Source of the DNA: Nitzschia sp. pyKryTriq1
Lineage: Eukaryota; Bacillariophyta; Bacillariophyceae; Bacillariales; Bacillariaceae
Assembly: GCA_956465555.1 (NCBI GenBank)
Contig: OY101116.1
Location: 930,001-994,000 of the forward strand
Reading direction: 5' to 3'
Length of the DNA: 64,000 nt
The notes beneath the pieces are model-generated. The model worked only from the letters and a program-made list of their open reading frames with translations, was not told the DNA's origin and did not search any database. The first letter of the stretch is position 1. Each line of letters begins with the position of its first letter. Positions 61,136 through 64,000 of the stretch are shown here, piece after piece. A program made the position numbers and the translations under genes.

Positions 61136-61614
61136 TAAACGCAGATGTTGAAATGTCTTTGGGAGAAAGCCATTTCATTGGTGGCTGTCAATGTAGAAGT
61201 ACTCCTACCATTTTCAGAGGGCGGACATCTTCCGACTCTACGAATGAATCAAAATCTCCGCCACGGCGCCTTCGCTTCAATGGGGACAAATTAAAGAAAT
61301 GAATGTTGTATGAAGAGCTTGTTTCTATTAGTCTAGCCCTATTTCAGGTGCGATCTGTTGTCCGCGTCAACAATCGTAGTGGACCCTTCATCAGCAGCGT
61401 AGGATCTGTCAATCGTTGAGTATCACCGAAACGGTTCTACTAGCACCCATTGTTGATGGGCACTGCCAACGACGTCATTCGTCCTATCTTGGGATTCTGA
61501 AAAACGCAGCGAATACCATTTCCACTGAATAGGGATCCACCAATGAGAGAGATGCTTCAAACCGGCCGTATCTGAATAGCTTTGCTAGAAGAGCTCCCGC
61601 CTACTCTGATATCC
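61136..61614. other. Convergent intergenic region, 479 nt; 3' UTR of the TGA-containing gene
   Basis: If the neighbouring reverse gene is a selenoprotein, a SECIS element should lie here on the reverse strand. I see a short hairpin (GCCCAT / ATGGGTGC with a CAACA loop) at about 61443-61466 that follows an ATGAC at about 61474-61478, but the spacing is longer than in a standard SECIS. I do not call it. Confidence 0.4.
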
Positions 61615-62410
61615 TTAGACGCGCTCCAACATTCTCAGAATGTGAAGTCGTTGATGGAGCCAAGCCTTGAGCTCTGCCTTCATTGGATCAGACGCCATAC
61701 CCTCCAATCGGGTGATTTGCTTGGCTCTCTCCTCCTTGGCCTTGGTCTTCATCTTTTCAATATAGGTCTTTTCCTTCTCACTGCATTCCACTGGGTTGCT
61801 GACATCGCACTTGACCTCCAATTTGTCTGTGACGAATTTTTTGAGACTATCAAAGTCACGAGCACCCGTGTATTTCTCGCCCTCCGTGTCACCATCTACA
61901 AAGTAGAGAATAGTTGGGTACCCCTTGACCTTAAAGGAAAAAATATCAGATCGGGGATCGATGTCAGTGTCTCCACCACCGATGAAACAATGTTCACTGA
62001 GCCGTATTACTAACCTTAAACGTGTCACAGAGTTCCTCACCAGAGGCCGTACAGTCCACGTCGCCGATCAACACGGAGGATGAAGCTGCGTATTCATCTC
62101 CCAGTTGGTCCCAAGCGGGCTTCATGGACTTACAGTGGCCTCACCTTCGAGATGTTATGGAGGGGTACGCGATAAAACGTGAGAAAAAGCTATGAAAAGG
62201 TCGCCTCATCCTGGCATTGTACAGTACATTATCGAATACAGTACATTGAACATGATAGTTTCATACTTACCAAGGAGCCAGAAACTTGATGAAGGAATTC
62301 TTTCCCGCCATCATGTCACTGTAGTTGTCAGAGGTGAGTTCGGTTGCCCCTCCACTGACTGGAGTCAGAGTGGACAACACCGCAAGGATGGTAAAAAGGG
62401 ACTTGGTCAT
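61615..62410 (-). CDS. PDI/thioredoxin-like secretory protein with in-frame TGA at the first active-site Cys (candidate selenoprotein)
   Basis: Three exons encode 194 codons: 62410-62271, intron 62270-62145 (126 nt, GTAAGT to CGAAG), 62144-62015, intron 62014-61930 (85 nt, GTTAGT to TTTAAG), 61929-61615. A signal peptide covers residues 1-20. The thioredoxin fold follows: NSFIKFLAPW, then codon 48 TGA, then GHCKSMKPAWDQLGDEY, VLIGDVDCTASGEELCDTF and VKGYPTILYFVDG with the cis-Pro. The active site is thus W-TGA-G-H-C where PDI has WCGHC, so TGA stands exactly where the first redox Cys should be. Both splice joins keep frame and family pattern. The C terminus is a charged helix without KDEL. 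Sec-containing PDI-like proteins are known in algae (the Emiliania huxleyi EhSEP2). Alternatives are a sequencing error or a dead gene. Confidence 0.75.
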
Positions 62411-63129
62411 GGCTGCAATGTGCTTTTTATGGTGGGCTTTCGGTTTATTGTAATAATTGGGCATTCCTGTTGTTGTTCTCGCCGGCCGTCGCTCGTGGAG
62501 CGGAGAGGGGGCGCGGCGGCGCGGCGGCGGGTCGGGACAGTATTACCGGTACATACCGGTACCTGGTAATGTACCGGGAACATCCAAGGATCGAGCGATC
62601 ACGCGCGCTCCACCTTGCTCCACTGAACTCAAATATTGTAACAGAATTGAAACAGATTTGGTTTTCTGATAATTGTGAGCCTATTTTTATTGTCTATTTT
62701 GCTACTCTTGATTTTCCAGAAAAACTTCCAGTAGTAATTGCAATTGCATTTCCCAGTAGTAAATCCACAGGATTCTACTGTTTTTCATCTTGCCACCTCG
62801 TTGGTACTGACTCAGGATATGCATCTCTTCATTCCTACTGGGAACTAAAAGGATGTAGGTCCTAGTACTTGATCTAGTATCTGATCTAGCCACATCAGTA
62901 AGTGGGACGCTAGAACATGTAATTTCGCTCGGGCGCTCGTGGCTGGGAGTGCTCGAACGTGCGCGTGGTTCAGCGCGTGATTTCCTCGATCAGGACAGAA
63001 GGACATACTGATGACGTCATACGCCAGTCGTCATCAAACCTTGTCGAACATATACGGACGTACACAACATCGTACGTCATTACTATTATACAACATGTAA
63101 CGGTTGAACAGTACGTACTTCTACTATTC
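62411..63129. other. Intergenic, about 720 nt
   Basis: Positions 62410-62464 could extend the PDI-like protein by 18 residues, but this would bury its signal peptide. A TACCGGTA/GGTACC palindrome cluster lies at 62545-62580. No gene is seen. Confidence 0.45.
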
Positions 63130-64000
63130 TGTTCTAATACTCCCCTTAATGGCGGAAGTAGTTGTGTCTTCTTAGTTGCTATCAGTAGACGATCTTCCGG
63201 TAGCTTGTAAAAGTGCATCAGGCTTACGGAACATGTACTGATCAAGAAGGCGATGGAAGTCTGTTCCATTTAAGGGCTTGGTGCATACATCTGCTACATT
63301 GAGCTTGGTATCTATATGCCCAAAGGTCAAGTATCCGCTGGCAATTGCTTCGCGTACACGGTGGTAGTTGCACGCTTGATGTTTCTTCTTAAGCTGCGAA
63401 GAAGGCAAGGTGGTATTTACCACTACTGCTAGGTTATCGCCTACTATCATGGAAGTGTCTTCAACTGGGACACCAAGCATGCGGAGTTTGTAACGAAATT
63501 CAATCAGTATATCAACGGCCGTACGGGCTGCCACGATCTCTGATCCATAAGTGCAGGTCGAACATGTCGTACTTCGTGGGACACGACGATGAACCGTGAC
63601 GTCCGGTAAGTCTGCCTCTGCGGCATCATATTGATCCATCGAGTCGGCAATCTTCTTCTCTCGTTCTGCCGGACTCGGGCATATCTCCCCTCCATGTGAG
63701 GCCGTAGTACGGATAGGGGCTGTAGCGAATTGCGGGTCCCATTGGACGCGCTTGTTGCGGTTAAATGGGCGTACGACACTACGGGTAACGATTTTCTTAG
63801 TCTGGTCGTCGTAAATAAGGAACGTTAAGGCGTCTCCCACGTTGGAAGCGATTCCTACCCAGTGTCCGGGGCGTTCATTGGTACTCGGGAAAGATTTTTC
63901 ATGTCCAGCGTATAACACGGGTTCCCAAAAGGAGAACTGCAGGAATGCAGAGATGTCTGGGGTAATGCCGGTACGTTTTTGCTTTGGTGTCATATTTATA
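63130..64000 (-). mobile_element. Ty1/copia (diatom CoDi-like) LTR retroelement fossil, 3' part
   Basis: The reverse strand encodes copia polyprotein parts. In the segment nearest the window edge there is an integrase-C-terminal-like region (ERPGHWVGIASNVGDALTFLIYD). Further on comes an RNase H end (YGSEIVAARTAVDILIEFRYKL, VGDNLAVVVNTTLP, HIDTKLNVADVCTKPL). A purine-rich tract on the reverse strand near 63141-63152 fits the polypurine primer next to a 3' LTR, which would begin below it. The element looks broken and incomplete and continues past the window. The readable frame suggests a fairly young insertion, but age cannot be judged without both LTRs. Confidence 0.75.

Follow-up and report, generated by a model that had tools for sequence, protein, structure and literature searches.

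Gene structure and the in-frame TGA codon

The window analyzed here is a stretch of 64,000 nucleotides (nt) from the diatom Nitzschia sp. pyKryTriq1 (assembly GCA_956465555.1, contig OY101116.1, positions 930,001 to 994,000 of the forward strand). Its minus strand carries, at 62410-61615, a gene for a protein disulfide isomerase (PDI)-like protein whose reading frame holds a single internal TGA, here considered as a candidate selenocysteine (Sec) codon. The parts of the gene are the following (window positions):

62271..62410, minus strand: exon 1, with the ATG at 62410-62408, an N-terminal hydrophobic, signal-like stretch (judged by eye) and the end ...FIKFLAPW (TG of the Trp codon)
62145..62270, minus strand: intron 1, GTAAGT...AG, phase 2 within the Trp codon
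62015..62144, minus strand: exon 2, with the G of the Trp codon, the TGA, GHC and KSMKPAW...
62141..62143, minus strand: proposed Sec codon TGA 48, Cys in the paralogue PDI_A and TGA in the paralogue PDI_B
61930..62014, minus strand: intron 2, GTTAGT...AG
61615..61929, minus strand: exon 3, with the remaining thioredoxin fold (KGYPT), a C-terminal module that looks helical by eye and the stop codon TAA

Joined in frame, the three exons give 585 nt and 194 amino acids (aa). The introns have the borders TG|GTAAGT...CGAAG|GTGAGG and AAG|GTTAGT...TTTAAG|GTC, and a second in-frame ATG, at 62464, lies upstream of the start. Among the 194 codons the sole internal stop is the TGA at 62143-62141 (codon 48), with no other stop or frameshift, so that the frame is intact on both sides of a TGA placed at a Cys/Sec redox position. 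Exon 2 begins G TGA GGC CAC TGT AAG, and since intron 1 divides the Trp codon as TG|G, the TGA is flanked by TGG and by GGC CAC TGT, exactly at the first Cys position of W-x-G-H-C. These results bear out the gene model of an initial annotation made from the sequence alone, which had joined three exons into a thioredoxin-fold protein whose only in-frame stop fell on the first Cys of CGHC, with the second Cys, the flanking Trp and KSMKPAW preserved.

The thioredoxin fold is recovered at 79.8 bits by PF00085 (cut-off 23.5) when Cys is written at the TGA, and exon 3 alone retrieves TXNDC5 and PDI chains from PDB. The protein combines a thioredoxin domain with a CxxC-type motif (UGHC), as expected of the PDI family. 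Its C-terminal module gave no Pfam family above cut-off, and its C-terminus reads LERV, which is not a KDEL-like retrieval signal for the endoplasmic reticulum (ER).

A splice variant that dropped the TGA would yield a shorter protein devoid of Sec. When intron 2 was kept unchanged and splice sites were drawn from a limited region around intron 1, nine in-frame GT/GC-AG combinations did bypass the TGA. All nine, however, cost the protein most or all of W-x-G-H-C, its active site, and six depend on a GC donor whereas the donor of the gene model is GTAAGT, which makes this explanation extremely improbable.

Upstream of the gene, at 63172-63993 on the minus strand, lies an open reading frame of 273 aa that by eye resembles the RNase H end of a copia-type retrotransposon.

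Paralogues in the same genome

The genome was searched over 40.65 Mb in 20 contigs, of which C20 bears plastid genes; the psbA of C20 has its best matches in the PDB chains 6jlu, 6j3y and 8iwh, which belong to diatom photosystem II. The pattern TGGTGAGGNCAYTG matched four times, and one of the matches is a paralogue on contig C1 with the same TGA (PDI_B). The other three (C1:4005329, C3:2852799 and C5:2964191) were rejected, as their translations are not PDI-like.

PDI_B forms a tandem with PDI_A at C1:665170-667685 (loci L018/L017). The two copies share 91.7% identity and both end in KDEL; PDI_A reads WCGHC and PDI_B reads W-TGA-GHC, with its TGA at the same codon as that of the window gene. 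Within this one genome, therefore, homologues carry either Cys (PDI_A) or TGA (PDI_B) at the position in question. The ratio of nonsynonymous to synonymous substitution rates (dN/dS) between them is 0.18 over the whole length and 0.175 past the TGA, which indicates that the pair is constrained beyond this codon; the copies may have undergone gene conversion. The hexamer GAATGA is present in the first 600 nt of the 3' untranslated region (UTR) of PDI_B and absent from that of the Cys copy, which makes this tandem well suited to the study of Sec/Cys exchange.

The window protein is 45.9% identical to PDI_A, 43.5% to PDI_B and 40.9% to a homologue on contig C7 with the motif WCGHS and the C-terminus RGDEL. 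These three paralogues end in KDEL or GDEL, unlike the window protein. A further paralogue lies at C5:1809358-1809864 on the minus strand (L023). It reads G-TGA-GGC-TGA-TGA, i.e., the GUGUU of PDI_e with two adjacent Sec codons, in a frame that is otherwise open, and shares its C-terminal module with the window protein.

That a lone nonsense codon among 194 should fall exactly on the redox Cys, and that the same TGA should recur in the paralogue on C1, is unlikely to be due to chance. It also bears on whether the TGA arose from faulty sequencing or assembly, the gene being in truth an ordinary Cys-type PDI with TGC or TGT. A single base decides between the two, but an error would account neither for the same TGA in PDI_B and the three TGAs of PDI_e nor for a 3' UTR element common to other TGA genes (see below), and we regard it as a most improbable explanation.

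Sec machinery and other TGA genes

Three loci exceeded the cut-off for the Sec transfer RNA (tRNA-Sec), and ARAGORN read the anticodon tca in them:

C4:2830576-2830822: two tandem tRNA-Sec genes (L006/L007), with starts 161 nt apart
C5:2573652-2573737: one tRNA-Sec gene (L005)

A SepSecS gene and a selD homologue (SPS2), itself with an in-frame TGA, are also present, so that tRNA-Sec, SepSecS and selD together provide the host with Sec machinery.

In-frame TGA codons at known Sec sites recur across the genome. They were found in three of the four PF00255 matches (GPx, at VASN/VACL/VASM-U-G), in SelT (FCAS-U) and in SelM (SCQG-U). Among SelU-like proteins they occur at RPG-U or SLG-U in three of five PF13911 matches, with none seen by eye in the other two. 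MsrA carries GUFWG in two genes, L053 and L054, which account for three of 15 PF01625 matches, these three being the ones inspected at sequence level. L054 (C1:1878300-1881200, minus strand) combines GUFWG and a SECIS-like element (see below) with an extra in-frame TAG, and is either a decaying gene or one with an unseen intron. In TXNRD the C-terminus reads GCUG after an intron was placed by eye in one of two copies, the second being L069.

TXNRD copies with identical scores (L064/L065/L068/L069) lie at C1:4149298-4150898 and C3:3013724-3015324, and the regions of the pattern matches at C1:4005329 and C3:2852799 are nearly identical. The paired TXNRD copies and the twin pattern regions point to a possible large duplication between C1 and C3.

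A SECIS-like element in the predicted 3' UTR

The initial annotation had named 61150-61614 as the interval in which to search for a Sec insertion sequence (SECIS), none being recognizable there by eye. Taking the sequence that follows the stop of each open frame as its predicted 3' UTR, we found the following element:

61400..61486, minus strand: SECIS-like element in the predicted 3' UTR, inside 61150-61614 and about 130 nt past the stop codon
61486-61482 and 61404-61400, minus strand: helix I, TAGGA paired with TCCTA
61478-61475, minus strand: 5' core, the ATGA of GAATGA
61473-61467 and 61418-61412, minus strand: helix II, GTCGTTG paired with CAACGAT
61411-61409, minus strand: 3' core, TGA

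An ATGA...NGA core between helix I and helix II, as in a SECIS, is thus present at 61486-61400. The lack of any SECIS at this locus, which the initial annotation had counted as grounds for rejecting its proposal, is not what was observed.

The motif recurs in other TGA genes. The commonest 7-mer, GAATGAC, occurred in eight of the 12 TGA-gene UTRs first extracted, and GAATGA lay at most 200 nt from the stop in 14 of 15 TGA-gene 3' UTRs (window included), PDI_e being the exception; as background, it occurred anywhere in 43 of 211 stretches of 600 nt. GAATGA is common to the 3' UTRs of the TXNRD, SPS2, GPx, SelT, SelM, SelU-like and MsrA genes. A fixed geometry of helix I plus helix II was found at GAATGA in seven of 12 UTRs (window included). 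The same geometry occurred across the 64-kb window at 30 of 732 ATGA sites and two of 53 GAATGA sites, the candidate being counted in both.

A model of the core plus its pairs was then fitted on nine UTRs, from which the window was excluded and from which PDI_B and GPx_L034, whose 3' arm could not be placed clearly, were omitted. The window element scored 22.4, which ranks it first among the 732 ATGA sites (next 16.9) and first among the 53 GAATGA sites. The nine training UTRs scored 11.9-22.9 when left out one at a time, and two UTRs fetched after the model had been fixed scored 19.7 (TXNRD) and 17.0 (SPS2). Among 211 null stretches one reached at least 18 and three at least 16.5, and the UTR of the Cys gene PDI_A scored 0.8. 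The best site of PDI_e, which has no GAATGA, scored 18.1, and that of PDI_B 16.5, at another ATGA. Counts of covariation are descriptive only, since 3' arms were chosen partly for pairing. A folding-energy score also placed the window element first of the 53 GAATGA sites.

This ranking bears on whether the locus is instead a young pseudogene, in which a Cys codon (TGC or TGT) mutated to TGA and left the gene dead or its protein truncated. The stop within the frame and the missing ER-retrieval tail of the three paralogues would suit such an origin. Yet the remaining codons hold no further stop or frameshift, the TGA sits exactly on a Sec-prone Cys, and PDI_B has the same TGA ahead of a frame under purifying selection. 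With a 3' UTR element that ranks first of 732 sites and a genome rich in Sec genes in addition, pseudogenization appears very unlikely.

Departures from published SECIS rules

A number of results count against the element and hence against the Sec reading. The folding-energy score ranked it only sixth among the 732 ATGA sites. The window was one of the examples from which the geometry was first recognized, even though the model was fitted without it, and helix I requires a C-A mismatch beside the core, which was permitted when the window had already been seen. Among the UTRs not used for training, PDI_B (11.6) and GPx_L034 (13.8) scored poorly at their own GAATGAC, and the first 600 nt of the PDI_e 3' UTR hold no GAATGA. 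Rfam scans at E values up to 10 gave no match to RF00031 (SECIS_1) at the window locus, no SECIS at five other TGA-gene loci and no RF00031 match across the genome, where 133 of 718 first-look candidates were scored. A joined-arm covariance model built from nine loci (R1) missed the element as well. According to the available text of PMC2375036, the SECISearch rules require AA or CC at 10-13 nt from the quartet and filter out Y-shaped elements. Unpaired AA or CC at that distance was found in none of ten minimum-energy folds (those of the window element and of the nine training loci, with PDI_B, GPx_L034, PDI_e, TXNRD and SPS2 left aside); the window element has AA at 20 nt and a branched, Y-shaped apical part that the published filters reject.

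The searches themselves differ in reach. Over the whole window, the single match that R1 returned was located elsewhere, at E 0.94. When its filters were switched off for the UTR, it gave the 5' part of the element 1.7 bits, with a wrong 3' arm, which is below a plus-strand match of 5.4. As it recovered just five of its own nine training loci, R1 lacks the power to handle elements with long apical inserts. A first strict SECIS pattern scan picked the later-used site in SelT alone; it gave one weak match in the window UTR, elsewhere than 61486-61400, and none in GPx_L035, GPx_L036, PDI_B and PDI_A. We also scanned 14 UTRs, those of 13 TGA genes and of PDI_A, for the canonical AA/CC form over their initial 600 nt. 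When a filter on helix I was applied, none of them gave an element, compared with roughly 10% of the 212 background stretches. By the same measure the human GPX1 SECIS, in what we take to be its sequence, has a helix I count of only 1, which suggests that the filter is too strict. When the filter was removed, weak elements emerged in two of the 14 UTRs, those of SelM and MsrA_L053, as compared with 73 of the 212 background stretches.

The interval 61150-61614 does hold a SECIS-like element, at 61486-61400, although neither Rfam nor R1 finds a match there and the AA/CC rule fails. Judged by its sequence, the element would be SECIS-like in its working, but we do not assign it to the canonical consensus. 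A broader reading, which we put forward tentatively and at somewhat less than even odds, is that this diatom may possess a lineage-specific SECIS architecture, with an almost invariant GA-AUGA, a matching 3' NGA-NNN, two covarying helices, a long and sometimes branched apical part and, at 10-13 nt, neither AA nor CC unpaired. The window PDI would then be one of its carriers and, through the unnamed C-terminal module that both share, a relative with just one Sec of the triple-Sec PDI_e; this module is found on an FKBP-like protein too. If so, much of the selenoproteome of this diatom would be missed by standard SECIS tools. Among the papers retrieved, no title or abstract opening announces a diatom SECIS devoid of AA/CC, and we make no claim that such an element is unpublished.

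Proposed function

Taken together, the locus is very probably a functional selenoprotein gene, predicted from its sequence to encode a PDI-like thiol oxidoreductase of the secretory pathway, with one domain and with Sec as the first residue of its active site (W-U-G-H-C), the SECIS-like stem-loop driving recoding. That UGA is read as Sec, as the initial annotation had suggested, is supported by the Sec machinery, the other TGA genes at known Sec sites, the constrained Sec/Cys pair and the SECIS-like element.

Once the gene is transcribed, the stem-loop about 130 nt past the stop, with its AUGA...UGA core between two helices, would recruit SECIS-binding factors together with the Sec elongation factor and tRNA-Sec(UCA). 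UGA 48 would then be decoded as Sec, and the TAA at 61615 would serve as the genuine stop. In thiol-disulfide exchange the selenol would be the attacking residue and Cys 51 the resolving one, and the Sec-Gly-His-Cys pair would probably take part in disulfide exchange within the secretory pathway. Location in the ER is likewise predicted, while retention there is uncertain because the protein, unlike its three paralogues, has no KDEL-like tail. Nonsense-mediated decay under selenium shortage is known for other selenoproteins, and the mRNA of this gene could be exposed to it in the same way, since its UGA precedes intron 2.

Automatic annotation would tend to truncate this gene at the TGA or to shift a splice site around it. 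The window PDI and the GAATGA motif suggest a route to annotating diatom selenoproteins, for which Rfam and the AA/CC rule found little or nothing here.

Comparison with known systems

Algal PDI-like proteins with Sec, to which the initial annotation had referred, are indeed on record. The available text of PMC7539508 describes the Sec-containing PDI_a to PDI_d, and PDI_e with GUGUU and three Sec; that of PMC2375036 describes two PDI selenoproteins in Thalassiosira pseudonana and cites a Sec PDI of Emiliania huxleyi (its reference 43). The window gene adds to this known kind of gene. As far as these sources describe them, it shares with the algal Sec-PDIs a PDI-like thioredoxin fold, one Sec at the redox site and a Sec-rich algal genome, and differs in a SECIS-like element that does not follow the published AA/CC spacing. 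PDI_e as described in PMC7539508 is matched by L023, which has GUGUU, and not by the window protein, which has WUGHC and one Sec.

The window element resembles the eukaryotic SECIS (RF00031; PMC2375036, in its available text) in being a 3' UTR stem-loop with helix I, an ATGA/NGA core and helix II, and departs from it in having no unpaired AA/CC at 10-13 nt, a Y-shaped apex and no Rfam match. With the Cys-type PDIs (PF00085; TXNDC5 and PDI in PDB) the window protein has the thioredoxin domain in common, while differing from them in that Sec replaces Cys, only one such domain is present and the C-terminus is not KDEL-like.
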